A stretch of DNA of 44,836 nucleotides from positions 1-44,836 of the IMG/VR virus record IMGVR_UViG_3300030329_004952; one strand, 5' to 3'. This DNA comes from a virus. The translations under genes and the position numbers were made by a program. Below are positions 14,986-44,182 of this stretch, one piece after another. The notes under the pieces are model-generated. The model ran no database searches. It was not told the DNA's origin and saw only the letters and a list, made by a program, of their open reading frames with translations. Numbering within the stretch: the stretch's first letter is position 1; each line of letters opens with the position of its first letter.

Positions 14986-15003
14986 CTCGTGCGAGCGTCC
15001 GTC
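14973..15003 (+). other. Possible RNA hairpin spanning the gp25 stop codon
   Basis: GACGG at 14973-14977 can pair with CCGTC at 14999-15003, and CTC at 14978-14980 can pair with GAG at 14993-14995. Alternatively an inner GCTCG/CGAGC pair forms at 14985-14996. No run of T follows, so it is not a clear terminator. It could be a processing or attenuation element just before the CTAATTA site, or chance. Confidence 0.3.
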
Positions 15004-15020
15004 AAATTCCCAATGAGAGA

Positions 15021-15027
15021 CTAATTA
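15021..15027 (+). promoter_or_regulatory. CTAATTA candidate late-promoter element, copy 1 (before gp6)
   Basis: The heptamer lies in the 60-base gap between gp25 and gp6, after AATGAGAGA, and 18 bases before the gp6 ATG. If it acts like the T4 late element, the transcript would start near 15033, at the AGAGG ribosome site (15033-15037). The same heptamer with similar left flank occurs in the two other gaps of the structural block. Function is inferred from recurrence. Confidence 0.45.
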
Positions 15028-15045
15028 GTTTTAGAGGTTTTCAAC

Positions 15046-16842
15046 ATGGCAAGAAGAATCACACCAGTCAATTATTCCGCTCGCGACTTCGAGTCCATTA
15101 AAAGCGAACTGGTGCAATATGCAAAGAGGTATTATCCTGAAACTTTCCGTGATTTTAACCAAGCCTCGTTCGGTGCGCTTATGTTGGATATGGTGTCGTA
15201 TGTGGGGGATAGCCTATCTTTCTATCTAGATTATCAGGCAAACGAATCGTTTTTCGATACAGCTACAGAAAGAAACAATATTATTCGCCAAGCTAAGCAG
15301 ATGGGGTACCAATATAGAGGAGCTTCTACGGCTACGGGCATGTGTGATTTCTATGTGGTTGTACCTGCAACTTCTACGGGACTTGGACCTAACAGCGCTT
15401 ATTTACCAATTTTAAAACAAGGCACATCGGTAAGCTCAACAGGCGGCGGCGCCTTTATTTTGGCGGAAAACGTAAACTTTGGAGATACGACAAATCCCGT
15501 AACCGCTGCTCGTGTTAACCCTGATACGGGGGTTCCTACACATTATGCTGTAAAAGCGCGAGGAAAGGTTGTATCGGGAAGGATCGTTGTAGAGAATCAC
15601 AGAGTAGGCGGCTTTCAGAGATTCAGAAAAATTCAACTCAAGAGTCGAGCAGTAACGGAAGTCCTTTCGGTTTTTGACGATCAAGGGCACGAATATACAC
15701 AAGTAGACTACCTCTCTCAAGACGTGGTTTATAAAGAGATGGGAAATAGAGGTTCCACTGCCAACGATCAGGTCACCTCTGTTATGAAGCCGATTATTGT
15801 CCCGAGACGCTTCGTGGTTGAACAGACGGGAACTCGATCTTTTCTCCAGTTTGGATATGGCTCAGATTCCGAGATAACCAGTGATTCGGTGGCAGAGCCT
15901 TCTCAGATTGTTTTGAATCAAGTGGGTAGACCTTATATCGAGGATGTTAACTTTGACCCATCAAAGCTTTTGGATACCGATAAGTTTGGTGTTGCACCCG
16001 CGAACACTACGCTGACTATCACATATAGGACGAACGGTGGAGCAAATTCTAACGCAGCAGCACGAACCCTGAAGAGGATCCAGAATCCTATTGTGGAATG
16101 GAACGATAGAACAGCGGTTACTAGAAAGGTTGCTAGAGACGTGATTAACTCTATTGAGTGCAACAACGATGAGCCCATTGTTGGGAGCGTTGCAGACCCT
16201 TCAACAGCCGAGTTGAAGCGTCGGGCTATTGATCACTTTGCAACGCAAAACCGCGCAGTAACAGAGCGTGATTATGAAGCGATGGTGTACGCGATGCCCC
16301 CACAGTTTGGGGCGATAAAAAGGTGCAAAATTGTTCGTGACGATGACTCTTTTAAAAGAAATTTAAATTTGTATGTTCTTGCCGAGAATCGAAATGGCAC
16401 GTTAGCTGAAGCAACCATGCCTCTCAAGGAAAATCTTAAAACGTGGATCAACAACATGAAGATGGTACACGATACGGTTGATATTATCGATGGTAGATTT
16501 GTAAATTTTGGAATAAAATATTCTATTATTGCCGAGCCCAATGTAAACAAATATGAGCTTTTAGACACTTGTAGCAGGGCACTGTCGCAATATTATGCTG
16601 AGCCTTCGTATTTCGGCGAATCTTTATATATTACCGATGTTTATTCGGTCTTGAATAAGATCGACGGAGTGGTTGACACATATGATGTGGAGTTTGTGCA
16701 GAAAGAGGGAGGAGCTTATTCAACCACGACATATTCTTTCAAAAGCAACATGTCTGCCGATGGAAGACAGCTATTGGTTCCCGATAATGTCTGCATGGAA
16801 CTTAAGTTCCCCGGTACCGATATCGCGGGAGCAATTAAATAA
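15046..16842 (+). CDS. 6: gp6-like baseplate wedge protein (baseplate J family)
   Basis: This 598-residue protein resembles T4 gp6, the wedge protein that forms the baseplate inner ring, and the baseplate_J family. The N-terminus has the typical YSARDFESIKSELVQYAKRY block, followed by FNQASFGALMLDMVSYVGD and FYLDYQANESFFDTA (residues about 10-75). The region ATQNRAVTERDYEAMVYAMP near residue 400 is the conserved J-domain segment. T4 gp6 is 660 residues, so the size is close. An AGAGG site precedes the ATG. It forms the wedge with gp25; its other usual partner, gp53, is not obvious in this window. Confidence 0.9.
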   Translation: MARRITPVNYSARDFESIKSELVQYAKRYYPETFRDFNQASFGALMLDMVSYVGDSLSFYLDYQANESFFDTATERNNIIRQAKQMGYQYRGASTATGMCDFYVVVPATSTGLGPNSAYLPILKQGTSVSSTGGGAFILAENVNFGDTTNPVTAARVNPDTGVPTHYAVKARGKVVSGRIVVENHRVGGFQRFRKIQLKSRAVTEVLSVFDDQGHEYTQVDYLSQDVVYKEMGNRGSTANDQVTSVMKPIIVPRRFVVEQTGTRSFLQFGYGSDSEITSDSVAEPSQIVLNQVGRPYIEDVNFDPSKLLDTDKFGVAPANTTLTITYRTNGGANSNAAARTLKRIQNPIVEWNDRTAVTRKVARDVINSIECNNDEPIVGSVADPSTAELKRRAIDHFATQNRAVTERDYEAMVYAMPPQFGAIKRCKIVRDDDSFKRNLNLYVLAENRNGTLAEATMPLKENLKTWINNMKMVHDTVDIIDGRFVNFGIKYSIIAEPNVNKYELLDTCSRALSQYYAEPSYFGESLYITDVYSVLNKIDGVVDTYDVEFVQKEGGAYSTTTYSFKSNMSADGRQLLVPDNVCMELKFPGTDIAGAIK

Positions 16843-18809: not shown

Positions 18810-18820
18810 GATGATTAGGA

Positions 18821-21800
18821 ATGGGAACTAAAGATTTATTTGACAAGGGAACACCCTTTAAAATTCTAACAAGTACCGATGTCCAAAAAGCCACCGAAAA
18901 GGTGGAGTCTCCGAGAAACTTAAGGGCTAAAATTGAAGAAAAGGGTCGGTTTATACCCCAGATCGACTATAACAATCCTGCTGAATTTGTTCGTTTTGGT
19001 TCTGCTGAAAAATATTATGAAGACGCCTTTGACCGAATAACAGACAATTTTCCCTACGACGGGTCAGAGGCAGAGCAAGTTGAATTCTATAATAGCTCTT
19101 CTTATCTTGACCTTTATGTTTTTGACAAAGAATATCCAAGAACTACTGGTTACGCGACAATTCACAGTGAGGGATATACTGCTGCCGGAGTTCAGGATGG
19201 GTGGGTAAGGGTTCACCCTCTCGATCAAGAATACATCATCATTAAGGGAGGACCCCACACAGCTTCTGGCGGGATGCCGTCAGGCTCGCTAGGGACTCAG
19301 TTTACGGGAGCGAACTATTATAACACAGATATTTATACGACCGACAGGGAGTATCAGGGAACAAGGACAGGAACAAGACTTTCCAATCTTCGATATAGCT
19401 TGTCTGATGGCGTATCAGTTGAATTTTGGTTGAAGAAAGATGGATGGCAGACAACCAGTACCGACACCATCAATAAAACGGCTATTTTTGATCTGTGGAA
19501 TGGCGAGGTCACTGGAACTGCGGTTGGATCGAGCGTATATGACCACTCCCAGTATGGTCGTCTTTTAATTTATCTTTCGGCAAGTGGACCAGTTGGGACT
19601 GGAACCGGAGGACTGTATCCTTTTGGTGTCCATTTAGCATCCGGCTCCACTGTTTGGGATTTGCAGTTTGGTGCAAATATAACCACTTCATCGATGGACG
19701 GTGATTGGCACCATTTTGCCTTCACGTTCCAGTCTAGCTCTGACAACAGTTCTTTGGAGGCAAAATTCTTTCACAGTGGTGCCTACGTTGAAGCCTCTAG
19801 TTCGGGAGATATTGGAACCTTTGGCGAAGTCACGGGCTCGCTAGTCGCTCACTTAGGCTCTTTACAAACAACACCTTCTGGTAATGCTTTTGCCGCTTAT
19901 GCATATCCCGTGACCACATGGAAGGGTTATGGCGGTCTCAAAGCTTCGATGGATGAGTTCCGTTACTGGAAGACAACCCGAACTGCCGAGGACATTGGTT
20001 TAAATTATTTCCGACAAGTTCGCGGCGGAACAAATACAGATCCAGCAAATGCAGATTTGGGTGTTTATTATAAGTTTAACGAGGGCATCACCGGTACCAG
20101 TTCTACTGACTCTATTGTTTTGGACTATAGTGGTCGGATCTCCAACGGTACATGGTTTGGATATCCCGGCTCTGCTGCGAGAAACACGGGCTCAGCCATG
20201 GTGTCTGCTTCAGCTATTTTAGAGGAGTGGGAAGACCCCATTATTCGCCCAAACAACACTACCCTGAGCAACAAAAGAAGCAGCCTCATAGAATCCGGTA
20301 GTATTTTTGACGATACTCATAACGCTACTCTCTATAATCGTATTCCAAGCTGGATCATAGAGGAGGATCCGGGCACGCTCAAGGACATGATGCAAATCAT
20401 GGCGAGCTACATGGACACTCTTCATCTCCAACTCGAATCATTGCCTCACTTAAAAGATATGACATACGCGAGTAGTTCTGTGAAAGCGCTCCCAATGTCG
20501 AATCGCCTCGTAAACAATTGGGGGCTGGAAGCTCCAGAGATTTTTGCCGAGGCAGATATTCTGGCTCAAATCATGAGCCGCGATGAGGTGCGCAATTTTG
20601 ACCTTAACTTGGACGAGATTAAGAACAGAATTTATAAAAATATTTACAATAACCTAGTTTATATCTACAAATCCAAGGGGACGCTAAAGTCTTTTAGGAA
20701 TCTTATTCGTTGTTATGGTGTTGGGGATGATATTGTAAGGCTCAATCTTTACGCCAACAATGCAACGCACAAAATAAGGGATAATTACGAGCCCTCTGCG
20801 GTTCGAAAAAATTACGTTAACTTCAATCATCCAGATAGTTTTAACGGAGTTGTGACTCAGCAATCTCAAAGTTCAAACCCTAGTGCGAACAACGTATCTT
20901 ATGTGTCTGGCACAGTTAACGAATATCTGGCAACGACTGCCGAATTGGATGTTATTTTTCCGAAGAAAACAAGTGATGCGGGAAGTATTTCTTGGTTTGA
21001 TACCAACTTCCTTTCATCATCGATTTTTGGAACTCACCGCCTTCTCATAGATGGCGAGGTGAATGAGCCCGCCTTTGAGCAGGCTGCTGTTGTAGATGAT
21101 TATTCATGGAGTCTGTACGCTGTTAGACCAGAGGAAAACTCCAGTGACGCTTATCTGGTGTTTAAATCCAACCGAGGTGCAAAGCCAGATTTCTATCTTA
21201 CCTCGGCTATCTATCCTGATCTTTATGATAATGAGCGTTGGAACTTTGCTGTTCGCACTAAAAATGTAAAATATCCTGTATCTGACGGGGCTTCTGGATC
21301 GGATGCTGGAAATTCGACTGATTTTGATATCGATGACACTTATCTCAAGCTCGAACTTTATGGTGTCAATTATGATGCGGGCTTGTTGAAGAACGAACTT
21401 CTCCTCACCTCTTCGGCATTGACCGCTAGTGCCTATCTGACCGCCGACCGCCGATACTATGTCGGGGCAAGCAGGACTAATTGGACTGGATCTGTTAACG
21501 TTCGCAGTGATATTAACGCGGCTTCTTTGCGACACTGGGAGAGTTATCTTGCAGATGAAGCAGTTCAGGCTCATGGTCGAGACCCCAATAATTTTGGTTC
21601 TCTTCGCCCCTACCGCAGCACATATCTGATGCAGTCTGCCTTAACGGGTACATGGGTCCCTCAAATGGCGACCTTGGCTTTAAATTGGAATTTTAATGAC
21701 GTAACTGGCTCTGATTCATCTGGAGAGTTCATTGTTCAAGACGCGTCTTCGGGGTCTATGGATGACCTCGGACGTTATCACGACAATGAAAATAATCCTC

Positions 21801-24800
21801 AATATTGTAGAACTATTTCTTATCAGTATCCCGGCACTGCTTATGGGATGAGAACTTCTAGCACGGGGGCTGTTGATAGGGCTTATATCTACGGGTTACG
21901 GCAAAATGCTCCCGACAGTCTTATGAGTTCGGACATGGTAAACATTCTTAGTAGACAAGATGATATCGAGTTTACGAGAGAGACGAGACCAATAAATTAT
22001 TATTTCTCTTTCGAGAAAAGCATGTACGGAACCATCACACAAGAGATGATGAACTTCTTTGGTTCGGTTGTAGAATTTAACGATCTCATCGGAGATCCCA
22101 AGAATCGTTATCGACAAGATTATAAAGAGCTTGGCAAACTCAGAGAACTGTTCTTCGAGAAAATCGGAAACACTCCAGATCTCGATAAATATGTGGAATA
22201 TTACAAGTGGATTGATAATTCTCTCGGGGTGATGCTCCGGCAGCTTGTTCCAGCTACCGCTGATTTCTCAGATGGTATTCGAACAATGGTCGAGAGTCAC
22301 GCCCTTGAAAGAAACAAATACTGGAACAAGTTCCCAACCCTCGAAATGAAGGTTTCAGATCCAGAAGCTGCTGTTCATGGCATCACAGAGCTTAGGTATG
22401 ATTGGGAGCACGGTCATGCGCCTCCCGCACCAATACGCGCTGTGGCAACAGGAGGTACCGACATCTTGTTAATGCCCGGTGATCAGGCTAACAATGATCG
22501 TTTTAAGGTTAATATTCCGACACACTTGGGCGGTACCGGAGAAGACATCACAATTAGGTTTGTCACTGCCACCCCTTCGGACGGTACAGCAGGCGAAATT
22601 CAGATAAGTCTTGGGGGTGCTGAAACTACACGAAACAGGCTAGTAGCCGCCATCAACGGTGTCGATACATCTGTAGTTAAATATGGTGCTGGCTCTGGCG
22701 ACGTGACTAACGGTATTGCTGGAATTTCTGGGGCGAATGGCTCCACGGTTGCAAAGACAACTATAACCTCAACCCAGTCTAGTCCTTATGGCGGCACCTC
22801 CATCGTGTTCACCGATATCGAAGGTACCGCTGTCGCAGAAGGCGCGACCGGCGCTTCCCCGGCATATATGACTGTTCCGACAACAGCGCTTGAGAGCGAT
22901 AATTGTCTGTGGTGGCACGATAGAGCAGAAAGAACCACGGGTGTCCTCTCTTCTTCGGTGGCAAGTGTCAACACTGACAGGGACGCAATCCTTACGATTA
23001 CCGAGACTTACAGAACAGGCTCTCCCGGTCCAACACTCGCACAGTCCACAAAGGCTTTGCCAGCCCCAACCTACCAAGGCTCAACATATGCCCTTAGAAG
23101 GTTTGATGAAATTTATAACCTTGTCCCTGACGAGAGCCCACTCTATCACGGTGGACCAGACTATTCCCAACGTAAACGTTATGGTTTTGTGAAGCCCCAC
23201 CTTAATAGTGTTTCGGTCGCCACCGCGCACGCGGGCTTCGATTTGCAGGTAATAGGTCAATCCACTATAGCCGGTCGTTTAGATCCAGAAGATGGGAAAG
23301 ATTGCGATGACGCTCTTATCCCTCCCGAACTGAACAAAAAGAAAATTAAAAGCGGTTTTTATGCCGCACCCCCCAGCGTTGCCGCACCCCGACCACTCCG
23401 CACTAACCCTTATACGAGTCAGGGTTATAGTGATATCGTCACGCCTTTTAGCCTCTACAGTTCGTCTGTCAACACCGGATATATGGCTGCTGACATCGGC
23501 AACAGACCCGGCGCGACCGGCGGTAGAAAAACACTAGCCGATGTTGTGTCTGGAGGGATCACAAATTATCATCACGACATTATCGGCAATGATATGGATG
23601 TCCCAATGCAGGGACCCTTTACCGAGAAATATGTTGGCGGAAACCAGTGGCGACATCAAGACCTCGTTTACGACCCAGAGACAACAGGATCAGCCTATGA
23701 CGGAAACAGGGCAGAGGCATGGTATCTTATCGCTGCTGCCACTAATCATCTTTTCTTGGAAAATGTTCGTTCACGGCTGTACCACACCGTGCCACGGGTA
23801 TATCTCAGGTCTCCGCAAGCGATTTATACTCGCGAGGAAGCCGCCAAACGACCCGTCAACATCCGAAACATCCAGATGACAGCAAGTGCTGTAGGAGCTT
23901 ACAAGACAACTCTTCCATCTGATGCAGGCACAAATATCGGACCCACCCCAACAGAATTCATCTCTGGTACACTAAGGTCCAACATCGGAAACTTCGAGAA
24001 CTTCTACGATATTGTCCAAACATCAGGTCGAAGCATTAATAACGTAGCACTTACAAAACAGGATGGGTTTAGTAAGACAGCCATTGCTCCAGATACTAGT
24101 GCTGGCTCTTATGTTGAGACGCTTGTAAGCACAGAGAAGCCACAACGTGACAAGAACGAGCATGTATTCGTGGAAAGGTTCTCTGCTCCCGGCGGACCGG
24201 AGACAGCAGGCGATGCAAATGGAGGCTTCGGTCTTGATTTCGAGTCGGCTGTCTATTCTCCCTATAATGCAATGCCTTGGAGAAACACATCAGTAAGAAC
24301 CCCTCTCAATAGGACACTGCTCGTTAACCATTCGAACCAGTTTGGATTTTACAGCAACGAGCAAGAGATAAAAAACGGTGGTCGCGTCTCTGTTGCAAGT
24401 ACAGGCACTGACATCATAACAAACCCCGGTGATCAAGCTAATAATGATCGATTTACTGTAAACATTCCAACAGCACTCGGTGGCACGGGGGTAGATATTA
24501 CAATCAGAGTTGTTACTGCTACTCCTTCCGATGGAACCCCAAATGAAATTCAAGTAAGTCTTGGGGGTGCTGAAACTACACGAAACAGAATTGTGGCTGC
24601 TATCAACGGTGTCGATACATCTGTAGTTAAGTATGGTGCTGGCTCTGGTGATATAACTAACGGCGTTGCGGGGATTTCCGCCGCCAATGGGTCTACAACC
24701 GCAGATATAACTATAACTTCAACTACTGGTGGGCTTACCGGTGACACCATTACATTTACGGACGTTGAAGGAACCATGATCTCTGGAGCCGGTACGGGCG

Positions 24801-27800
24801 CCTCACCAGCCACCATGGTGGTGCCATCAGGCGTCAACGGCGACTCAACTGTCACAGCCGAGAATTATTCTGGAACGGGCAGTTACCAGAAAGCTAATCG
24901 TAATACCCTAAAGACGCCCAGACTTTCTGCCACTTCTTTGGATTACGGAACAGACGAGGGAGATATGGTCGTAAGCACGGCAAGTGTTTATGACAATGGC
25001 TGGGTTACACATGAAATTCCAAGAATGGAGACAAGCTATGCTTGGATTGCAACTTCTTATACAGGCTCTCTGGCTTTTGGTCATGGTCATCCCGATGGCT
25101 TGCTGTCTACTTCTGCTGGCTATGTTGCCTCTATTGACTTTGTAAGTTCGTCGGATTTTGTTAGTTATATCCACCCCGCCATACGGACATACGGAGCAGA
25201 CCATATAAATGTGGGCGTCGGCGCTCTCAGTCCCGTTTTCCAGACGACTCACCTAAACACAAACATCGTTGAGCCCATGACTGCCTCCCAAGCTATTTTG
25301 GGGCACCAGATTAAAACGTCTTCCATCGGGACCACCACCCCTCTTACGACTTATATTAACATTGGAGATATAGACACTACTGTGCCACCCGCTGGACTTC
25401 TTATATCAACCAACGATACGTTCATCGAAAATGTCGGCGCCGCCACCACCGCCGGTAATACAACCTTTGCAAGTGCTTTCATGGATCTCATCATTCACCG
25501 CCAAGGATATTACGGTCATCCCTCTTGGAAACAAATAAGGGGTGCAGAACACCAACTCACAAGGTATTATCGCAACAATAATCAGATTACGATTAATCCC
25601 GATGATGGTGCTTCGTTTGAGGTTGCCACTAAAGGCGGGGGAACCATAACAATTGTTCCTCGCTTCGGAGAGCTTCAGATATTTGATGAACCTCCAGTGA
25701 ACCAAAGCTCAAAACCTTTAAAGTTCGTACTTGGAATTGAAACCCAGACGGGAATCAACCCTGATGGAACTCCAGCGATGGGGGTCAAGAATCTTGAGAT
25801 TAACTCTTCTTACGGGAATGATTTGATGAGGTTCTCCAATCTTGGTCTGGAGGAACTTACCACACTAAGTTCGAATACAATCTATACTTCGTATGACACC
25901 ATTAAAAACACCTATTTGAATGGGGCATTGGCGAGCCCAACGACTCCTGTGAAAAGTTTTGTTTCACTGACCTATAAGCAACAGGTATATCCGGCTGGCT
26001 ATAATGCGGGGCTAGAAAAGGTTCGAGAAAGGCAAAATTTTAAAATTAAATTTTGGGCTAATAGCCGAGCCGACCGAACCCTTCTTGGGAATGAAAAGAG
26101 TAGCAGCATGGGGTTCCCCCGTAAACTAGCGGGCACCACTAACTGGGGACAGCAGACCCGACTCTCTCAGAGTGCATGGGTTATGGACGCTTCACAGACT
26201 TTTGTAGACGGTCCTATTTGTTCGGCTTCAAACGCGACCTCAAGCGCTTCGGGCGAGCTTCAAAACGATTATGTCATGGTTCATTCGGGAGGCGTAGGGG
26301 CTCCTAGTTATAGAGGCGTTGCCTTTGTTAAAGCGGGGGCTCTATACTCTCGGAAACACATGCTTCCGTCTACAGCTTCGACGGTCCCTGTCACACTGGA
26401 CAATCCCCAGACTGGCGGTCTAGGAAGTAACTTAACCATGACAAAGGGTGCCGTTAAACTTTTTGCTGGAAACGCCCTATGGGAAGCCGATAGACTTGCT
26501 GGAAGAATAAAGAAGAAGTTTATAAACATGAAGAGTCCATGGGGGAAAACTGTTGCCCCCGAAATTGCTCAGGTCTTTGAGTCGGCTGTCAGGCAACCAA
26601 TTGACCCTGATTACGAAAGTAATATGAAAGATGCAATACTTCAGAATCAAACGTTCAGTGTTATTCCCGAGTTTAGAATAAGCGATCATATAAAATTTTA
26701 TGTGGAATCTGGAGTAAATTTCTTGCGAGAAAATAATAATTTTCTTGACATATATGGAGCCTCTGGGTCGTTACCCTCATCTAGTGGCGAGGATAACTTT
26801 TATAAAATTTACACCAACTCAGATTTCATGAAGAATTTCGAGACCATTCATGATGATCATGCTGGCTTTAAGAGTCCCTCTAAGATTACGCTTAAGTGTA
26901 AGGCGATTAAAAAGTTCTTACCTTATGATGGGTTTTATCCGGCACAACGATCTTTAGATATGGCATCACAATTTTCACAATCTTATGGGCAATACGTTTC
27001 TTACCCGGATGTTGATAGCATTAAGGCTACATCGATCAAGGACTACGCCGAACAAGCACGACTTCGCCCTCTGATGGCGCCTCTGTTTGCTCCCGGCGTG
27101 ATGTATAACACCATTAAATCGGGAATGGCTGTGGATTATGGAACATACAGTGGTTCTTACGAGGTGATATGTAACACGGGTTCGGCTGGAGGAGGTGGCG
27201 AGGGCACAGGCGGCGGTGGAGAAATGTACTTGGTAGGTGCTCCAACAGCCCTCGACGGCTCAAAGCGCCGCTCTGAAGACGCTGGTGTTTACGCTTATGG
27301 TTTTGATAATCGAGTTCCGTTTGAGGCTTTGGTAGAGCCCGAGAACCACATAGCCAACATGACCTTTGTGGATATGGAGCCTCACCCAAGTGCTTCTATG
27401 AATTTAAGCGCGTCATGGGATGGTACAGGAGATCCCTTCTACAAATTGATGGCAAACAATTTCTTTGCTGAATGTATCCACATGTTTATGCCCAATGGAC
27501 AAATGACTTCTTTTGTGTCTGCTAAGGAGGATGAATTCTTGCCCTTTGAGCCCGGTAAAGTTTATGGCATGAGGATTAAACTGCGGAAGAGCTATAATCG
27601 CCAAAGAACATACGAGCAAACAGCGCAGAAATTAAATTACCCCATTCCCCAGATTACCCCAAATGAAGCTGGTTTGATGGAGGGGACGAATGCCCCCGAT
27701 GAACGACTACTTGAGACGTTCACGATGTACAGCCGCCCCTCTGCTTTTGGTCCCCCGATGGCTGGCAGAATATTCGGACCCGCCAACCAGATCGAACAGG

Positions 27801-29314
27801 ACATGGGAATGATTAAGGGCGGACCTATTGATGGGTACAATCCTGCTTATACTCCTCCCTACTACTGTGGAGAGGCGTGGTTTGATATTTATTTTAAAGC
27901 AACCGATGTATCTCATGACATCGCTGAAATCCTTGGAGACTCTCATTTTTCTCCCTATAGGTTCGATTACCAGTGGTGGACCAGAGCAGCGGGTGGAGGC
28001 GCCGCGGCGACACGCTCGGATCCGGCTATTCCATATGACTATCAGCAGATTACGAATTATATTATGCAGCTAACGGCTTCGATTAACATTGATGGGGTTG
28101 CAAATGTAAACTCTGTAGAGTATTCGCCAGATGGGACCCCAGTGTTGGTATCTGACAGCCCTGTCGGGACCGAGAATGTGTGGGTCATCGAGCCCAAGTT
28201 TGAAACCCCAATGTTTAACTTCACTCCGACATCGGGTGCTTTGCGACCCATAACGGAAGCTGACGGAAACTTGACTATTCCGGCTAATGGAGCAGCTACC
28301 GTTCCTCGGGGAATGTGGCACCAATTTGGACTACCTCCTTCATCGGATGAAGAGGGGATCTTTTTGGAAGTGACAGATATCGACCCCCAATGGGCTAAGA
28401 ATAGAGCAGCCCGCGTGAATTCCTCGACGAGTGAAGGACAACTGTGGTACAGTTCAGAATTGAACAGTCAAGGTAAAACCTATTTAAGCTTAAAAAATCA
28501 AATAGGAATGAGTCAAACCAGCAAGCGCATGGGCGAAGTTCGAGAATCTCTTGAGGTGAGAGAGGCTATCGTTGCGGTCCCCTTTACCGTTGGTGGTGAT
28601 GGAAGCAGACAGTTTTTTGCAATACCTTCTGACTCTATTGATGCCTATCATCAGATGACAGATTTTCCAGCAATGGCGGGCGCTCTAGAAACTTCAGGCA
28701 ACCCAGAGTTGGATATAGGCGATTCTATCAAGAAACAGATCGAAGCTATGAAGAGGTATGTCATACCACCACAATTTAACTTTAACGATCTTGATGTGGA
28801 TCCGGTAGTAATGTATATTTTTGAATTTAGTCATATTTTTGATAAAGATGACTTGTCTTATATTTGGCAAAACTTACCACCAAAGGCGGCAGAAAAAATA
28901 GAAATGGTAGAGGCTGAAATAAGCCACCCTCTTTTGGTTAATGAGCTTATGGGTGCGAGGGGAGCCGCCACGGGAGCCGCACTTCAAGCGGAGCTTCAAT
29001 GGATGGTGTTCAAGGTCAAGCAGAAGGCGCATACGGAATATAAGGACAGGTTGGCAAAGAACACCGGATTGGTGGGCGACACAGATATCTCCACGTTTGT
29101 TCTTGGTGGAAAAAAAGCCACTCTGTCTCCGTCAAATATGAAATATTCCTATAACTGGCCGTATGACTATTTCTCTCTCTTGGAGTTTGGAAGCATTGAG
29201 TCAGAAGTAGAGTTTGGGAGTACGCCAGAAGTTCCCAACATCAGCTATTTGCCAGAGCCAACGGATGAAGAGCTTGAGGATGAGGACACCACTGATATTG
29301 GGTTTGGGGATTGA
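18821..29314 (+). CDS. Giant 3497-residue virion protein with LamG/lectin-like domains
   Basis: This 10.5-kb gene is the largest in the window. A LamG/concanavalin-type jelly-roll domain spans about residues 190-390, with SDGVSVEFWLKKDG, DGDWHHFAFTFQSSS and MDEFRYWKTTR as its typical first, middle and last strands. A second, weaker one lies at about 760-900 (DNERWNFAVRT, then YYVGASRTNWTG). Between them is a helical region with YKSKGTLKSFRNLIRCYG. Two copies of an inserted module lie at about 1209-1356 and 1858-2005. A Gly-rich GGGGEGTGGGGE linker is near 2790. The acidic end is about 15 residues. The lectin-like domains suggest glycan binding, so a fibre, adhesin or baseplate-periphery role is likely. 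No catalytic site was recognised. TTAGGA precedes the ATG. Confidence 0.75.
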   Translation: MGTKDLFDKGTPFKILTSTDVQKATEKVESPRNLRAKIEEKGRFIPQIDYNNPAEFVRFGSAEKYYEDAFDRITDNFPYDGSEAEQVEFYNSSSYLDLYVFDKEYPRTTGYATIHSEGYTAAGVQDGWVRVHPLDQEYIIIKGGPHTASGGMPSGSLGTQFTGANYYNTDIYTTDREYQGTRTGTRLSNLRYSLSDGVSVEFWLKKDGWQTTSTDTINKTAIFDLWNGEVTGTAVGSSVYDHSQYGRLLIYLSASGPVGTGTGGLYPFGVHLASGSTVWDLQFGANITTSSMDGDWHHFAFTFQSSSDNSSLEAKFFHSGAYVEASSSGDIGTFGEVTGSLVAHLGSLQTTPSGNAFAAYAYPVTTWKGYGGLKASMDEFRYWKTTRTAEDIGLNYFRQVRGGTNTDPANADLGVYYKFNEGITGTSSTDSIVLDYSGRISNGTWFGYPGSAARNTGSAMVSASAILEEWEDPIIRPNNTTLSNKRSSLIESGSIFDDTHNATLYNRIPSWIIEEDPGTLKDMMQIMASYMDTLHLQLESLPHLKDMTYASSSVKALPMSNRLVNNWGLEAPEIFAEADILAQIMSRDEVRNFDLNLDEIKNRIYKNIYNNLVYIYKSKGTLKSFRNLIRCYGVGDDIVRLNLYANNATHKIRDNYEPSAVRKNYVNFNHPDSFNGVVTQQSQSSNPSANNVSYVSGTVNEYLATTAELDVIFPKKTSDAGSISWFDTNFLSSSIFGTHRLLIDGEVNEPAFEQAAVVDDYSWSLYAVRPEENSSDAYLVFKSNRGAKPDFYLTSAIYPDLYDNERWNFAVRTKNVKYPVSDGASGSDAGNSTDFDIDDTYLKLELYGVNYDAGLLKNELLLTSSALTASAYLTADRRYYVGASRTNWTGSVNVRSDINAASLRHWESYLADEAVQAHGRDPNNFGSLRPYRSTYLMQSALTGTWVPQMATLALNWNFNDVTGSDSSGEFIVQDASSGSMDDLGRYHDNENNPQYCRTISYQYPGTAYGMRTSSTGAVDRAYIYGLRQNAPDSLMSSDMVNILSRQDDIEFTRETRPINYYFSFEKSMYGTITQEMMNFFGSVVEFNDLIGDPKNRYRQDYKELGKLRELFFEKIGNTPDLDKYVEYYKWIDNSLGVMLRQLVPATADFSDGIRTMVESHALERNKYWNKFPTLEMKVSDPEAAVHGITELRYDWEHGHAPPAPIRAVATGGTDILLMPGDQANNDRFKVNIPTHLGGTGEDITIRFVTATPSDGTAGEIQISLGGAETTRNRLVAAINGVDTSVVKYGAGSGDVTNGIAGISGANGSTVAKTTITSTQSSPYGGTSIVFTDIEGTAVAEGATGASPAYMTVPTTALESDNCLWWHDRAERTTGVLSSSVASVNTDRDAILTITETYRTGSPGPTLAQSTKALPAPTYQGSTYALRRFDEIYNLVPDESPLYHGGPDYSQRKRYGFVKPHLNSVSVATAHAGFDLQVIGQSTIAGRLDPEDGKDCDDALIPPELNKKKIKSGFYAAPPSVAAPRPLRTNPYTSQGYSDIVTPFSLYSSSVNTGYMAADIGNRPGATGGRKTLADVVSGGITNYHHDIIGNDMDVPMQGPFTEKYVGGNQWRHQDLVYDPETTGSAYDGNRAEAWYLIAAATNHLFLENVRSRLYHTVPRVYLRSPQAIYTREEAAKRPVNIRNIQMTASAVGAYKTTLPSDAGTNIGPTPTEFISGTLRSNIGNFENFYDIVQTSGRSINNVALTKQDGFSKTAIAPDTSAGSYVETLVSTEKPQRDKNEHVFVERFSAPGGPETAGDANGGFGLDFESAVYSPYNAMPWRNTSVRTPLNRTLLVNHSNQFGFYSNEQEIKNGGRVSVASTGTDIITNPGDQANNDRFTVNIPTALGGTGVDITIRVVTATPSDGTPNEIQVSLGGAETTRNRIVAAINGVDTSVVKYGAGSGDITNGVAGISAANGSTTADITITSTTGGLTGDTITFTDVEGTMISGAGTGASPATMVVPSGVNGDSTVTAENYSGTGSYQKANRNTLKTPRLSATSLDYGTDEGDMVVSTASVYDNGWVTHEIPRMETSYAWIATSYTGSLAFGHGHPDGLLSTSAGYVASIDFVSSSDFVSYIHPAIRTYGADHINVGVGALSPVFQTTHLNTNIVEPMTASQAILGHQIKTSSIGTTTPLTTYINIGDIDTTVPPAGLLISTNDTFIENVGAATTAGNTTFASAFMDLIIHRQGYYGHPSWKQIRGAEHQLTRYYRNNNQITINPDDGASFEVATKGGGTITIVPRFGELQIFDEPPVNQSSKPLKFVLGIETQTGINPDGTPAMGVKNLEINSSYGNDLMRFSNLGLEELTTLSSNTIYTSYDTIKNTYLNGALASPTTPVKSFVSLTYKQQVYPAGYNAGLEKVRERQNFKIKFWANSRADRTLLGNEKSSSMGFPRKLAGTTNWGQQTRLSQSAWVMDASQTFVDGPICSASNATSSASGELQNDYVMVHSGGVGAPSYRGVAFVKAGALYSRKHMLPSTASTVPVTLDNPQTGGLGSNLTMTKGAVKLFAGNALWEADRLAGRIKKKFINMKSPWGKTVAPEIAQVFESAVRQPIDPDYESNMKDAILQNQTFSVIPEFRISDHIKFYVESGVNFLRENNNFLDIYGASGSLPSSSGEDNFYKIYTNSDFMKNFETIHDDHAGFKSPSKITLKCKAIKKFLPYDGFYPAQRSLDMASQFSQSYGQYVSYPDVDSIKATSIKDYAEQARLRPLMAPLFAPGVMYNTIKSGMAVDYGTYSGSYEVICNTGSAGGGGEGTGGGGEMYLVGAPTALDGSKRRSEDAGVYAYGFDNRVPFEALVEPENHIANMTFVDMEPHPSASMNLSASWDGTGDPFYKLMANNFFAECIHMFMPNGQMTSFVSAKEDEFLPFEPGKVYGMRIKLRKSYNRQRTYEQTAQKLNYPIPQITPNEAGLMEGTNAPDERLLETFTMYSRPSAFGPPMAGRIFGPANQIEQDMGMIKGGPIDGYNPAYTPPYYCGEAWFDIYFKATDVSHDIAEILGDSHFSPYRFDYQWWTRAAGGGAAATRSDPAIPYDYQQITNYIMQLTASINIDGVANVNSVEYSPDGTPVLVSDSPVGTENVWVIEPKFETPMFNFTPTSGALRPITEADGNLTIPANGAATVPRGMWHQFGLPPSSDEEGIFLEVTDIDPQWAKNRAARVNSSTSEGQLWYSSELNSQGKTYLSLKNQIGMSQTSKRMGEVRESLEVREAIVAVPFTVGGDGSRQFFAIPSDSIDAYHQMTDFPAMAGALETSGNPELDIGDSIKKQIEAMKRYVIPPQFNFNDLDVDPVVMYIFEFSHIFDKDDLSYIWQNLPPKAAEKIEMVEAEISHPLLVNELMGARGAATGAALQAELQWMVFKVKQKAHTEYKDRLAKNTGLVGDTDISTFVLGGKKATLSPSNMKYSYNWPYDYFSLLEFGSIESEVEFGSTPEVPNISYLPEPTDEELEDEDTTDIGFGD
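22450..22890 (+). repeat. Duplicated module, copy 1 (in the giant virion protein)
   Basis: About 147 residues beginning TDILLMPGDQANNDRFKVNI are repeated near 24400. The copies share long exact DNA runs, including 34 bases at 22605-22638 that match 24555-24588, and a 29-base run around the ATCAACGGTGTCGATAC segment. Copy 1 falls between EHGHAPPAP and DNCLWWHDRAER, which read as one continuous domain if the module is removed. Confidence 0.8.
24400..24845 (+). repeat. Duplicated module, copy 2 (in the giant virion protein)
   Basis: This copy begins TDIITNPGDQANNDRFTVNI and follows the same order as copy 1: GVDITIRVVTATPSDGT, SLGGAETTRN, VAAINGVDTSVVKYGAGSGD, then a Thr-rich strand pair and a TGASPA end. 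Silent sites agree in the shared runs, which points to a recent duplication or gene conversion rather than old divergence. Confidence 0.8.
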
Positions 29315-29341
29315 CCACAATAGATATTTTTAAATTGAGAG

Positions 29342-29348
29342 CTAATTA
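29342..29348 (+). promoter_or_regulatory. CTAATTA candidate late-promoter element, copy 2
   Basis: The heptamer follows AAATTGAGAG in the 39-base gap after the giant gene and ends five bases before the next ATG (29354). The nearest ribosome-like site, GAGAG at 29337-29341, is 12 bases from the ATG and overlaps the left flank. If the element sets transcription start a few bases downstream, the message would be nearly leaderless. Confidence 0.45.
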
Positions 29349-29353
29349 ATACA

Positions 29354-30418
29354 ATGGCAACCTTCTTCGATAAAAAACAAGATGTAATAGATATTGAGCT
29401 TACCAAATATGGAGAGTATTTGCTTTCTTTGGGAAAGTTTAAGCCAGTTTACTATTCCTTCTTCGACAATAATGTTTTGTATGACACTCGATACGCAGGT
29501 TTCTCGGGCTCGCAAAACAGCTTTGAGGGGCGTATCCAAGAGGATACGCCTTCGTTGAGAACCCAGCATTCATTTGAGGGTCGTGGAGAGCAAGTTTTGG
29601 CGTATAACGAAGCTATGGTTGATGTGTTTCACCTGCGAGAAGATGAAAAAATTAGATTCCCATCGACAGTAGACAAGCACTTTACAGCCCTTTACGATCC
29701 ACTAGGTCATTCGGATTTATCTTCCACAAAAGCGCCCGCATGGAAGATGAGGTTTTATCACAATGAGATGCTTAATTGGGAAACAATGTATACTGGAAGC
29801 CGCTCAGAGCAAAAAATTCCTCAAATTGATGCTACGATAACTTATAAGACACGAGTTCGAACAACCCAAAACCCTCCCTTGGCGTTGGATCCTCAAACGG
29901 GGCAGATGGTTCCCCAAGGGATTTATCAGCCTAACGAAGTCGATCCTGAATTGGGCATGGGAATCTTTGCAGATGGCACTTTTGTGGAAGTCGAGGGCGA
30001 CTATATTCTGCTCGACCTGCAAGAAATCAATGCTTTATACGAAAGGGACAATTTTGAAATTGAGGTTTATGAGATTAAGACTCAAACCTTTCCCAACGGA
30101 AACACCAGAGACGAACTTATACCCCTTCAGTTTAGGGAGAAAAAACCAGAAATTGTAAACAACTTGTTGGTCGAAGATACGGGCTATACTAATGTTACGT
30201 TAGACCCGAGTTATGCAGAATATTTTTTTGATGTCCTAGTTGATGAAGAAATAAGTGACGTTATAATCTGCAAATCATTAAGCGAACTAAAAGCAAAGGG
30301 CGTCTACATAGAAACACCCTTTGAGTGTCCCGATTTATCTCCTTCTGCTACTGTTGGGCTCTATTCCTCTGAAAACACAGAGGGCGCTAAATGCGCGACA
30401 GAAACAGGAGAAGGTTAG
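29354..30418 (+). CDS. Conserved virion protein, N-terminal module shared with the protein at 37389
   Basis: This 354-residue protein is a probable virion component of unknown role. Its first 47 residues (DVIDIELTKYGEYLLSLGKF, then KPVYYSFFDNNVLYDTRY) align with the start of the 309-residue protein at 37389, so both carry the same N-terminal module. The rest has beta segments and an ALDPQTGQMVPQG turn, without a known motif. It sits between the giant lectin-domain protein and a 1316-residue protein, and is preceded by a CTAATTA site instead of a strong ribosome site. The similar openings suggest that the two proteins dock on the same tail or fibre partner (inference). Confidence 0.65.
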   Translation: MATFFDKKQDVIDIELTKYGEYLLSLGKFKPVYYSFFDNNVLYDTRYAGFSGSQNSFEGRIQEDTPSLRTQHSFEGRGEQVLAYNEAMVDVFHLREDEKIRFPSTVDKHFTALYDPLGHSDLSSTKAPAWKMRFYHNEMLNWETMYTGSRSEQKIPQIDATITYKTRVRTTQNPPLALDPQTGQMVPQGIYQPNEVDPELGMGIFADGTFVEVEGDYILLDLQEINALYERDNFEIEVYEIKTQTFPNGNTRDELIPLQFREKKPEIVNNLLVEDTGYTNVTLDPSYAEYFFDVLVDEEISDVIICKSLSELKAKGVYIETPFECPDLSPSATVGLYSSENTEGAKCATETGEG

Positions 30419-30420
30419 CC

Positions 30421-34371: not shown

Positions 34372-34392
34372 TGTTAGGGAGCGAACTTAGAT

Positions 34393-37308
34393 ATGCAGGC
34401 TAGTAAAAAGAACACATATATTTTTAAAGAAAATGCTAAGCCTATGGGCGCATCTGACACTGGCGACCAATCCCTCGGTGGTTTTAACGATACCCACTTA
34501 AGAGATCATGTGCGCCATGCTCTCGGTAAGTATTGGGTCTTAAAGCCGTCAGAAGTCTATTACGGAGATCCAGAGCAGCAGCAATTGTTTGAAAGTCAGG
34601 CACACACCACCATAAGCTACGGGGCTGTGGTGGAAAGATATTTAAAGCATCCTCCTTTTTGCTCCAAAGAGCAGTATATTTGCTTTCACGGTGACGAGAT
34701 CTGGGGACTGCCGCCTCACGGAGAATTCGGTTCGTCTACGTCGCTAGATCACGACGATTTTCGCTCAATGATAAACACCCTTGTGCAGACAAGCGACGGT
34801 CGCGCCGAGGTTTATAAAGATTGTTCGTTTAGGATAGATACGCCGTTCACCCAAGCGGAGAGGAAACAAATCGGAGACACCTCGGCGCTAGGCTATGTGG
34901 ACGTGGACTTCAGCTATAATTTCTACCACCCTCAGTATGAAGCAGCCGCCGCAGGCATCAGAGAGGAGCTTCTGCCCACCGTATATTCTTTTATTGGCGA
35001 TGATATATCACGCAACCTCTTTATGCTGAAAACTCTTCAGAATCGTATTTCGCAACACCTTGCTGTGATTCGAGAGGCTTCCGTGGATAAGATCGGCGAA
35101 ACCAGCGGATGGAGCGTAGGAGCCATATCCCACAGCACATCGCATGGCACTATGGATACTTATTTCTATTATTTGTCTAAGGTATATGCCGAGCTAACTT
35201 CTAAATTTAAAGACAACTTTGCAGTAAGATTTAGAAATTTTATTTTTCCTTTTGAGAATTTAAAATTGACGAGTGCTCCACCCAAGAAGAATTCGTTTCC
35301 CATGTTTGTGGAAGTTGAGTTTTCGACAGATAGCGTAACAGAGATAGCCCAAATGCTAGAAGATTCAAGTCTCACGACCGCCTTTCAGAGAAATGTTGCG
35401 GCAGGATGCGGGGGTCCTAACGCCTCTCTCTTGCGTCAAATGGGCGGGGGAACGGACGATTATTACGCCGCTAAGCAAAACCTTTCATACTCTTCTTTGG
35501 AGGGAGGGTCTATAGCCTACTCTTTGGGCTCCTACAAAAGAATAAATCTTTTGACGTGGTGGACCAATTATCTTCGAGGGCTAATACCCAAGGTTTATAA
35601 AAATCAAACTTTTATCGGACCCAACACTTATTCAGTCTATATTAGTTCGGGCGTTGAAAATAACAATCTTGCCCAAGCATTGAGCTTGTTGGTGTTTTCT
35701 GGAAAGTTGTCTGGCATTGTGCAAAAGAATCATCGTTCCATTGAAGAAGTGTTCGAAGGCAAAAAAAGCCATACAGAAACCGTGTTGTATAGGGTGGCGA
35801 AATACAAGGGAGCAGCGACCCCCGGAAAGATGCCAATTCAAAATTATTGGTTCCCCAATTCCAACAACATTGACATTGTTAACCTCGTAGATACGCAGGT
35901 AAGATATAGTTCGGTGTATACCTATGTGGTTTATGCATACCAGCTAATAATTGGGACCGAGTATTCCTATGGTCCTATAGAGTACGACCCTCCAGAGTTA
36001 CAAATTGATTGTCCCGAGCTTGATATTTCGCTAAACGGCATGGATTGTGTTGACGAAGATGGGACCACCGTCCTTGACAGTATGTGCGTTCAGATAGATT
36101 CCACGATAGTGTACAGCGCACTCCAAAACCAACTTGGAAACGATTATACTGATATAGGCATCTTAGCGCGGGACATACTCGCTCTGTATGTTCTGGCTGA
36201 AGCTGTTGATGCCCTCTCTATAGCCTCTTATGTAAACCAGTTATGTGTATACTTAGCCCCCCTGTATGGCTTCAGTTCCGCTAATCTTATCGAAGCACTA
36301 ATGGGGGCTGTGTGGAGCTACGAAGCCGGTGAGTCAATGTCTGTCACCTACCCTTCGATAGAGACGGAGGTGTACACCGATTTTAATGCATGGACCAAGG
36401 TTATAACAAAGCCCATTGTTGACGTGGTAGAGGTTCCCTTTTTCTCTCATACCGGCAAGATGATTGATTCCCCTCCGCTGCCACCTGATGTCAACATTAT
36501 TCCTTATCGTGGCGAGAGCGGAAAAGCTTTGATTTGGCTAAACTCTACTGTGGGAGATCAGGAAATGTATCCGATTGCCTTTGATCAAAAGGAACAACAA
36601 GAGATTAATCAGATTAGGCAAACTAACTTTTTAACTTCCAGTGATCCAATTCGCTTTAAGTCCGACGATGTTGCGGCAGCGTTTGAAATATTTAGACTCT
36701 CAGAGAAGCCGGAAATGTATACGGATTTTGCTGGCAACCAGCGGGCTATCGTCTCTACGGTCCTCGATCCCGATGCCCCAAAGAAGGCAGTATCCTCTAT
36801 GTCATATGTTGATGTTGTTGCGCCCAATACGAAGTATTATTATACGTTTAGGGCGCTAGACAACCACGGGCATCGCTCGAACCCCACGGCGGTATATGAG
36901 ATTGAATTGGTCGAGAACAGCGGCGCAGTCTATATGATTACGAACATCATTCCTTTGGGGGTCAAGCCAAAGCCGCACGAGCCCGTCAAACAGGCAAAGC
37001 GATATGTGCAAATTGTTCCTCGAATGACTCAGGGTCTCTTTAACCAAAAGGCATCGGGGCTTGCTGATGCAACTTCCGTACTAGAGGGGAACAATTATAG
37101 GCTGGGGGTCGAAGATCAAAGTATGTGGGGCAAGAAATATAAAGTGCGTTTTATTTCCAAATCCACAGGAAGAAAAATAGACTTGAACATTACTTATGAC
37201 ACAGAACACGTTCTAACTCCCGAAGAAATGGAGCTTAGAAACATGGATACAGAACCCTCCAACAATTGGTGGGACTTGTTCATCAGTTGGTTTGGCTCCA
37301 GCCCTTAA
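34393..37308 (+). CDS. 971-residue virion protein with a fibronectin type III-like region
   Basis: The protein opens with a polar tail and a mixed domain (HALGKYWVLKPSEVYYGDPE). Its centre is helical. At about residues 750-846 a fibronectin type III-like domain is suggested by VDVVAPNTKYYYTFRALDNH followed by NPTAVYEIELVE. A small basic domain (RYVQIVPRMTQGLFNQKASG) follows, and the protein ends with a Trp-rich NNWWDLFISWFG segment. FN3-like domains are common in phage tail and fibre proteins, where they are thought to help surface attachment. An AGGGAG site precedes the ATG. A TATAAAT sequence ends 23 bases upstream, but it lies within the previous gene's last codons. Confidence 0.65.
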   Translation: MQASKKNTYIFKENAKPMGASDTGDQSLGGFNDTHLRDHVRHALGKYWVLKPSEVYYGDPEQQQLFESQAHTTISYGAVVERYLKHPPFCSKEQYICFHGDEIWGLPPHGEFGSSTSLDHDDFRSMINTLVQTSDGRAEVYKDCSFRIDTPFTQAERKQIGDTSALGYVDVDFSYNFYHPQYEAAAAGIREELLPTVYSFIGDDISRNLFMLKTLQNRISQHLAVIREASVDKIGETSGWSVGAISHSTSHGTMDTYFYYLSKVYAELTSKFKDNFAVRFRNFIFPFENLKLTSAPPKKNSFPMFVEVEFSTDSVTEIAQMLEDSSLTTAFQRNVAAGCGGPNASLLRQMGGGTDDYYAAKQNLSYSSLEGGSIAYSLGSYKRINLLTWWTNYLRGLIPKVYKNQTFIGPNTYSVYISSGVENNNLAQALSLLVFSGKLSGIVQKNHRSIEEVFEGKKSHTETVLYRVAKYKGAATPGKMPIQNYWFPNSNNIDIVNLVDTQVRYSSVYTYVVYAYQLIIGTEYSYGPIEYDPPELQIDCPELDISLNGMDCVDEDGTTVLDSMCVQIDSTIVYSALQNQLGNDYTDIGILARDILALYVLAEAVDALSIASYVNQLCVYLAPLYGFSSANLIEALMGAVWSYEAGESMSVTYPSIETEVYTDFNAWTKVITKPIVDVVEVPFFSHTGKMIDSPPLPPDVNIIPYRGESGKALIWLNSTVGDQEMYPIAFDQKEQQEINQIRQTNFLTSSDPIRFKSDDVAAAFEIFRLSEKPEMYTDFAGNQRAIVSTVLDPDAPKKAVSSMSYVDVVAPNTKYYYTFRALDNHGHRSNPTAVYEIELVENSGAVYMITNIIPLGVKPKPHEPVKQAKRYVQIVPRMTQGLFNQKASGLADATSVLEGNNYRLGVEDQSMWGKKYKVRFISKSTGRKIDLNITYDTEHVLTPEEMELRNMDTEPSNNWWDLFISWFGSSP

Positions 37309-37347
37309 TCAATGAGCATAAACTAAGTGAGATTTAAAAATTGGAAA

Positions 37348-37354
37348 CTAATTA
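37348..37354 (+). promoter_or_regulatory. CTAATTA candidate late-promoter element, copy 3
   Basis: The heptamer follows AAATTGGAAA in the 80-base gap before the gene at 37389, the longest gap in the structural block. It runs directly into TAATGAAG, so a TATAAT also appears at 37353-37358. Over 30 bases this gap matches the one at 29319-29348 at about 21 positions. Transcription from it would leave a leader of about 28 bases with an AGGAG site (37373-37377). Confidence 0.45.
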
Positions 37355-37388
37355 TAATGAAGACTATTTATAGGAGTAGGGAAAAACA

Positions 37389-38318
37389 ATGGCTTTCTTA
37401 GACAATTCAGGTGACATCATCTTAGATGCTGTCCTAACAGACACCGGTAGGATGAGGTTGGCTCGCGGCGACGGCAGCTTTAAAATTGCAAAGTTTGCTT
37501 TTGGCGATGACGAAATCAACTACGGGGAATACGATAAAAACCACACCAGTGGTTCAGCTTATTATGACTTAGAGATTCTTCAGACACCGATTCTGGAAGC
37601 GTTTACTAACAACGCATCTTCCATGAAGTCCAAGCTTCTTTCTATCTCTCGAACTAACTTGCTTTACCTTCCAGTTATCGAGATAAACACGAATCCCGCC
37701 GCCGCAGTACAATATACGGGCAACTATTATGGCGTGGCTGTGGATACACGAACTGAACAGTCGGTATCGGGCATGTCAGGTGATCTCGTTACAACCGCTG
37801 AATCTCCGGCACTGACCGGCTTTATGTTCGGGGCAAATCCGGCAGATGGATCAAACTACATCAGAGTCGATCAAGGTCTGGACACTTCGGATATATCTGC
37901 TGATAATGTGCTCGATGCAGATTTGGTAGAGACGCAATACATTGTAGAGATGGACAACAGGCTTGGAAGTTTGGTTAGCGTAGGAGGTTCTACCGGAGCA
38001 GCAGTTTCTTTTGTTGACGACGATAACATCGCAAGCTACTATTTATCTTTGGGAACCGACTCTACCTTCGTCTCTAATAACACGGCGGGAGCAAGCGCCC
38101 CTGATCAGTCCATATCTGGTCCAAGGGGGACAACCCTTCAATTCCAGATACAGTCTTCTATTGATCTGAATTCAAGCACATTCTTGTTCACAGAATTAGG
38201 AAGCGAGTTTAGTGTCGATAACACCTATTACTATATCGACACTACTGTGCGCGTTACCGGGGCAACAACCGGCTACAGGATTGATATTCCAGTTCGATAT
38301 GTGAAGTACAAGAGTTAA
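37389..38318 (+). CDS. Conserved virion protein, paralogous N-terminus to the protein at 29354
   Basis: This 309-residue protein opens with GDIILDAVLTDTGRMRLARG, then FKIAKFAFGDDEINYGEY, an opening I recognise from virion proteins of marine T4-like phages. It is shared with the protein at 29354. The rest is beta-rich (TLQFQIQSSIDLNSSTFLF and a C-terminal RIDIPVRYVKYKS end). It is followed by two fibre-like paralogues with the same direction and short gaps. No motif of known activity is seen. A tail-fibre or baseplate role is inferred from position and from the shared module. Confidence 0.65.
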   Translation: MAFLDNSGDIILDAVLTDTGRMRLARGDGSFKIAKFAFGDDEINYGEYDKNHTSGSAYYDLEILQTPILEAFTNNASSMKSKLLSISRTNLLYLPVIEINTNPAAAVQYTGNYYGVAVDTRTEQSVSGMSGDLVTTAESPALTGFMFGANPADGSNYIRVDQGLDTSDISADNVLDADLVETQYIVEMDNRLGSLVSVGGSTGAAVSFVDDDNIASYYLSLGTDSTFVSNNTAGASAPDQSISGPRGTTLQFQIQSSIDLNSSTFLFTELGSEFSVDNTYYYIDTTVRVTGATTGYRIDIPVRYVKYKS

Positions 38319-42682: not shown

Positions 42683-42711
42683 TTGACAAAGCAACGTAGA
42701 CCAGTTATAAT
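42683..42711 (+). promoter_or_regulatory. Perfect sigma-70 promoter, predicted to give a leaderless mRNA
   Basis: TTGACA at 42683-42688 and TATAAT at 42706-42711 are 17 bases apart. The ATG of the resolvase gene starts at 42717, only five bases after the -10 box, where transcription would normally begin. No ribosome site precedes it. The promoter lies four bases after the stop of the virion gene, so it marks the change from late to early/middle genes. Confidence 0.8.
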
Positions 42712-44155: not shown

Positions 44156-44182
44156 ATTGCTATGGCAGGAGATAAAACAGAT

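Follow-up and report, generated by a model that had tools for sequence, protein, structure and literature searches.

CTAWTTA, a very probable late-promoter element of uncultivated T4-like marine phages, and the gp55-like sigma factor that likely reads it

Introduction

In the IMG/VR virus record IMGVR_UViG_3300030329_004952, analysed here over a stretch of 44,836 nucleotides (nt) that we call the window, the heptamer CTAATTA recurs in the few longer gaps between the virion genes, and a preliminary description made from the letters alone had proposed it as a diverged version of the T4 late promoter element, read by a gp55-like sigma factor of the phage. This locus raises the question of whether so short a word marks late promoters and, if it does, which protein reads it. 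We consider it highly probable that CTAWTTA (CTA[A/T]TTA), in which the fourth base is A or T, is a -10-like late-promoter element, at about -12 to -6, of a large uncultivated group of T4-like marine phages, and that it is most probably read by the gp55-like sigma factor.

The heptamer in the window

On the + strand of the window, CTAATTA occurs only at 15021-15027, 29342-29348 and 37348-37354, and its single minus-strand match (15022-15028) is the same near-palindromic site as the first of these. As had been described, each of the three longer gaps among the virion genes holds it, with one copy apiece; the remainder of that strand has none. These gaps, 14986-15045, 29315-29353 and 37309-37388, measure 60, 39 and 80 nt, and are the only ones there of at least 39 nt, the rest reaching at most 22 nt. 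The purine-rich left flanks agree with the earlier account, and the alignment of two gaps over about 30 bases is that of the second and third, with about 21 of 29 ungapped positions identical in a count by eye. CTAATTA was not found in the 38-nt gap before the resolvase and primase genes at 42717, nor was TATAAATA, the T4 late element, found on the + strand of the window.

The preliminary description had also held that a fixed heptamer in three such gaps is not expected by chance. A count in coding and noncoding DNA finds it less frequent in genes than in gaps, and CTAATTA is the window's best gap-versus-gene heptamer (p = 5e-5, before correction for many heptamers). In dinucleotide shuffles of the three gaps, some heptamer was common to all three in 0.48% of trials. 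From the window alone the pattern is suggestive and not conclusive, and chance sharing at this rate remains.

Since the fourth base may be A or T, CTATTTA counts as a further element in the gap at 37309, where it lies 16 nt beyond the first and forms a tandem pair with it. By itself CTATTTA is not specific in the window, as nine of its ten + strand copies lie inside genes. The candidate elements are:

15021-15027, + strand: CTAATTA, candidate late promoter element (candidate -12 to -6), 18 nt before the ATG at 15046; start predicted near 15033
29342-29348, + strand: CTAATTA, candidate late promoter element, 5 nt before the ATG at 29354
37348-37354, + strand: CTAATTA, upstream member of the tandem pair before the ATG at 37389; start predicted near 37360
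37364-37370, + strand: CTATTTA, second member of the tandem pair, with 18 nt between it and the ATG at 37389; start predicted near 37376

Comparative evidence from related phages

The decisive evidence comes from relatives of the phage (handles beginning with G or L are our own). Within 60 nt upstream of orthologs of the gene at 37389, CTAWTTA is present at 77 of 80 loci, and at 50 of 52 when redundant loci are removed, at distances of 15-50 nt, where shuffles lead one to expect 1.9; in these upstream regions it ranks first among all heptamers with one A/T-degenerate position. The claim that chance is not the explanation, modestly supported in the window, is thereby made good, and chance sharing is rejected. 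Gaps orthologous to that at 15021 contain CTAWTTA in seven of nine genomes, and also in L005, L006, L007 and L008, and the 5-nt arrangement of the 29342 element recurs in L010, L011, L012 and L074. The gene at 29354 has orthologs in eight genomes; a direct pattern scan found no relatives of it, and they were recovered by other means.

For the tests on whole genomes, the contigs of eight relatives and the Immutovirus genome were joined from fetched pieces and genes were called with a simple script; seven further contigs, not used when these tests were set up, served as a held-out set. In the window and in G001, G002, G003, G005, G009 and G012, the leading heptamers of the gaps include CTATTTA or CTAATTA, which ranks lower in G004 and G007; among the held-out contigs, CTATTTA is the first gap heptamer in four and the third in one. 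The element strongly follows the coding strand (strand counts of, for example, 3 versus 26, 48 versus 6 and 1 versus 28), and reversed or reverse-complement control motifs showed no pile-up before genes. The reverse-complement reading, TAAWTAG before genes (compare the T4-like TATAAATAG), was accordingly rejected for the family. As a positive control, the same approach recovers the TATAAATA late element of Pelagibacter phage HTVC008M; an apparent CTATTTA in that phage came from pooling both strands, and orientation resolved it into TATAAATA.

The element also distinguishes between classes of genes. These classes were defined as orthologs of Immutovirus genes, labelled from its GenBank annotation, with an upstream gap of at least 25 nt. 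Of 58 virion genes, 36 have an element in the 80 nt upstream, as against none of 28 in the replication, nucleotide or chaperone class (p = 3e-9); the held-out contigs give 27/44 virion and 0/16 replication or chaperone genes (p = 1e-5), so that among genes with room for it the combined counts are 63 of 102 and 0 of 44. The late genes that carry it in relatives include those for neck, sheath, tube and gp6-like proteins and the 37389 family, which bears out the expectation that gaps before other late genes would contain it. Sites of the sigma70 type, TTGACA-TATAAT, are skewed in the opposite direction, being present in 7 of 28 replication gaps versus 2 of 58 virion gaps, and the window provides a consensus example, with similar sites in the orthologous gaps of G002 and G012:

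42683-42711, + strand: host sigma70-type promoter consensus TTGACA-N17-TATAAT, before the RuvC-like resolvase and primase genes

At the level of sequence, these comparisons establish CTAWTTA as a real, strand-specific and virion-gene-specific element.

Distance to the start codon

The spacing between element and ATG is bimodal: most sites peak at about 15-30 nt, with a tail to 50 nt, a small class stands at 4-9 nt, and few cases fall at 10-14 nt; the held-out genomes repeat this distribution, with 5 nt as the commonest short distance. Since the T4 late box ends at -6 (PMC1524935), a spacing of 5 nt would put +1 on the A of the ATG. Only one of 21 short-distance genes has a Shine-Dalgarno-like site, compared with 65% of genes overall and 84-90% of those in the farther classes, a lack that is partly mechanical because the element occupies the Shine-Dalgarno place. 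Where the element lies 5-9 nt before the ATG, the late mRNA is thus predicted, by analogy with T4 spacing, to be leaderless or nearly so, including that of the gene at 29354. In many relatives, orthologs of the gene at 39462 have the element 6-9 nt before the ATG.

A weak signal in the -35 region

In 151 non-redundant promoters with leaders, with positions numbered from the element, G is enriched at -21 (0.36) and -20 (0.44, p = 3e-12), as is A/T at -16 to -14 (up to 0.94, p = 1e-19); relative to the presumed start, these positions correspond to about -33/-32 and -28 to -26. In the window, the second tandem element (37364-37370) has GG at -21/-20. A first held-out set, taken around the sigma gene, gave 13 usable sites, too few for this signal, and whole contigs were then used. 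The held-out contigs show G at -21 in 0.44 (p = 4e-5) and at -20 in 0.36 (p = 4e-3), and A/T at -16 and -15 in 0.89 (p = 1e-4), with coding copies of CTAWTTA near background. In the earlier contigs, the coding control has G at 0.35 for -21 and 0.22 for -20, which makes -20 and the A/T block the safer part. Some elements lie directly 3' of the terminators of the preceding unit, which adds T content upstream; as the sole source of the signal, terminator tails were rejected, since G at -21/-20 persists in sites without T-runs.

The candidate late sigma factor

If CTAWTTA is a promoter, the window also holds a candidate for the protein that reads it:

4614-5324, + strand: gp55-like late sigma factor gene (open frame 4530-5324; the TTG at 4614 fits the family, start uncertain)
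5031-5324, + strand: sigma C-terminal domain with a predicted fold like sigma region 4 (structure prediction)

The family was reached through a sub-threshold Sigma70_r2 match in relatives, with the frame 4530-5324 as the window's member; Pfam gave nothing above threshold for it, only that match. PHROG_234, 'late sigma transcription factor', matches the window protein (E 3e-5) and those of all 15 relatives (E 1e-3 to 2e-8; 16 of 16 records), and weakly gp118 of Immutovirus. The sigma is encoded on at least 565 IMG/VR stretches. Its region 2-like domain covers about residues 20-121. An AlphaFold2 model (pLDDT, the predicted local distance difference test score, 75) aligns with T4 gp55 from the gp55-promoter complex (7d7c_F; Z 10.2 over 114 residues, root-mean-square deviation 5.0), and also with region 2 of many sigma factors, while hhalign profile comparison with seven gp55 proteins covered region 2 alone (E 1e-3). 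A search of PDB sequences with the sigma profile gave nothing useful.

The last 97 residues, predicted alone, reach a pLDDT of 85. Foldseek found no significant match for this model; when it was re-aligned, the top 24 chains were sigma factors, nearly all matched through region 4, the best with Z 7.9 over 75 residues at 2.9 A. There is thus good, though not conclusive, support from modelling for a region 4-like C-terminal domain. The C-termini (e.g., FKVRWDEGKDS) are without the hydrophobic clamp motif, or LDFL-type ending, of T4 gp55.

In T4, gp55 works with gp33 and the gp45 clamp. For gp45 (PHROG_223, PF09116), no convincing match was found in the relatives, Immutovirus or Microcystis phage Mel-JY01, the latter two being complete genomes; one weak partial match to PHROG_223 (E 1e-3) falls in a 1158-aa frame of G014. 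As positive controls, HTVC008M matches both profiles and T4 matches PF09116. For gp33 (PHROG_254), T4 and HTVC008M were matched, and the relatives yielded weak fragments in G003 and G013 only, with no match in Immutovirus or Mel-JY01. A search with the single sequence of T4 gp33 gave no match even in HTVC008M and is hence uninformative; gp33 is a short, fast-evolving protein. A very diverged clamp in the relatives is possible.

Interpretation and alternative explanations

Because the element marks virion and not replication genes, and because a gp55-like sigma is encoded in the window and all 15 relatives, the promoter interpretation is supported: CTAWTTA is very likely a promoter, and the window's gp55-like sigma (4614-5324) likely reads it. 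In the proposed course of events, the host sigma70 would read early and replication genes from TTGACA/TATAAT promoters, and the phage sigma would then bring the host core polymerase to the CTAWTTA boxes before the virion operons, its region 2 presumably reading the box as in gp55. The region 4-like domain might replace gp33 on the beta flap, perhaps touching -33/-32; with this domain in gp33's place and a contact in the -35 region, a sliding clamp would not be needed. Such a one-piece late sigma, combining a gp55-like region 2 with a region 4-like replacement for gp33 and reading CTAWTTA plus the weak -35 signal free of a clamp, is a tentative proposal that we rate somewhat below even. Activation of late genes without a sliding clamp would uncouple late transcription from replication in the T4 sense.

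Several points weigh against the late-promoter reading as a whole. The exact motif is missing in 39 of the 102 virion genes with gaps, and in the relatives none was found directly upstream of the portal, protease, terminase and major capsid genes, the element nearest to the major capsid gene lying 1-5 genes upstream. The -35-region signal is weak (at either of its two positions G reaches 0.36-0.44), and its A/T part owes something to terminator T-tails. Foldseek E-values for the sigma models are weak, and Z below about 8-13 can be unspecific for helical proteins. The absence of gp33 and gp45 comes from profile searches of partly incomplete contigs, and the link between sigma and element is one of co-occurrence and analogy.

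Other explanations of the element fare less well. The host's own sigma, or an alternative host sigma, might read the late -10 box while the phage sigma-like gene has another role, and the AT-rich, -10-like core and the presence of a weak upstream signal speak for this; the same genomes, however, have near-consensus TTGACA-N17-TATAAT before replication genes, so that host sigma70 sites look different from CTAWTTA, the element is retained in diverged phages, and every relative examined encodes the gp55-like sigma, which together make this account improbable. The near-palindromic form of CTAATTA and the variable distance of the element to the ATG, 4 to about 50 nt, would suit a binding site for a phage transcription activator or antiterminator instead of a -10 box. 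We give this slightly less credence still, as the element is strictly oriented, its main form CTATTTA is not palindromic, its flanks (A at -1, T at +7) and the upstream signal keep a fixed spacing, and no other box was seen at a fixed downstream distance.

The location before virion genes, with a subset at the Shine-Dalgarno position, could also be explained by a signal acting in the RNA of late mRNA leaders, such as a translation enhancer or processing site. This appears the least credible of the three: the bimodal distances, which scatter up to 50 nt and are sparse at about 10-14 nt, fit RNA synthesis beginning 6 nt beyond the element, and the farther classes have Shine-Dalgarno sites of their own in 84-90% of cases.

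Comparison with known late systems

By analogy, the putative late promoter works like that of T4, with which it shares an AT-rich -10-like box before virion genes and AT-rich sequence just downstream, a phage sigma with region 2 homology, and separate early promoters for the host sigma (PMC2988020). It differs from TATAAATA at -12, -8 and usually -9 when aligned at -6, CTAATTA differing from T4 ATAAATA in two bases. T4 late promoters have no conserved -35 sequence (PMC2988020), whereas this group has the weak -35-region signal; T4 gp55 lacks region 4 and ends in a short hydrophobic clamp-binding motif, whereas this sigma has the additional region 4-like domain; and T4 has gp33 and gp45, for which no convincing counterpart was detected here. 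Because consensus, -35 signal and clamp all set it apart when tested, the element is not classed as a T4 late promoter. The suggestion of a diverged T4 late element read by a gp55-like sigma gains support from the sigma gene in the window, and is refined in that the consensus is CTAWTTA, with a weak upstream signal and a sigma whose architecture is seemingly unlike gp55.

A close published box is CTAAATA of Aeromonas phage Aeh1, which likewise opens with C at -12 and a TA, closes with TA, and differs from CTAATTA in a single base, at -8 (PMC1524935). Aeh1 has A at both -9 and -8; its gp55 is diverged, yet its late system is counted within the T4 family. Flavobacterium phage immuto (Immutovirus) and Microcystis phage Mel-JY01, the nearest isolates (about 29-30% identity in the gp6-like protein), have homologous baseplate genes and a sigma of this family (in immuto it is gp118, a hypothetical protein by annotation), although their sigmas are 24-26% identical to this one and Immutovirus gaps are richest in ATATTTA, with fewer CTATTTA. 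Immutovirus (NC_055915.1; L089-L092) also has many near-identical gap sequences GTTG-N~20-TATATTTAGGTAT...AATTAAAAC, a second promoter-like class that overlaps the ATATTTA count. In HTVC008M (NC_020484.1; L161/L162), several genes likewise have the late element, as ATAAATA, at exactly 5 nt from their ATG, which predicts leaderless late mRNAs; unlike the present group this phage has the canonical TATAAATA, gp55, gp33 and gp45.

Why a fused late sigma is not known is a question raised in a review on late transcription in T4 (PMC2988020); this sigma family is a candidate for one, which makes it testable whether such a fusion can stand in for the gp55/gp33/gp45 machinery. Published late-promoter prediction was unsuccessful in pelagimyophages (PMC7029224), and in the literature collection searched no relevant paper treats CTATTTA as a promoter of phages. 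For a large uncultivated marine phage group there is now a consensus for the very probable late promoters, together with the sigma that probably reads it, and late operons can be drawn in metagenomic phage genomes using CTAWTTA.

Neighbouring genes and further observations

The window encodes a T4-like baseplate (gp25-like at 14575, gp6-like at 15046), a RuvC-like resolvase, a primase and sugar-nucleotide genes. The genes downstream of the elements are:

15046-16842, + strand: baseplate wedge (gp6-like) gene, downstream of the first element (PHROG 219/10646)
29354-30418, + strand: virion-block gene with a predicted leaderless late mRNA (no PHROG match)
37389-38318, + strand: gene that follows the tandem pair, with 251 IMG/VR relatives

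Two very large proteins of the virion block (18821-29314 and 7939-14553; 3497 and 2204 aa) are without any PHROG match. In G001, G002, G003, G005, G007 and G009, the gap of about 90-420 nt before the prohead protease gene has, just 5' of that gene, an inverted repeat that is GC-rich and conserved (e.g., GCGGGTAGCGCCCGC), and G012 (L139-L148) has 19 gap copies of CCTACCC and a single copy within genes. Another perfect TTGACA-N17-TATAAT of the window is found at 2183-2211, within the open frame 2140-2493. Near the end of the primase gene, CTATTTA occurs at 44125-44131 and 44148-44154; the latter copy, 7 nt before the ATG at 44162, may be a promoter or a chance occurrence, the second being conceivable as its TAG is the primase stop codon.

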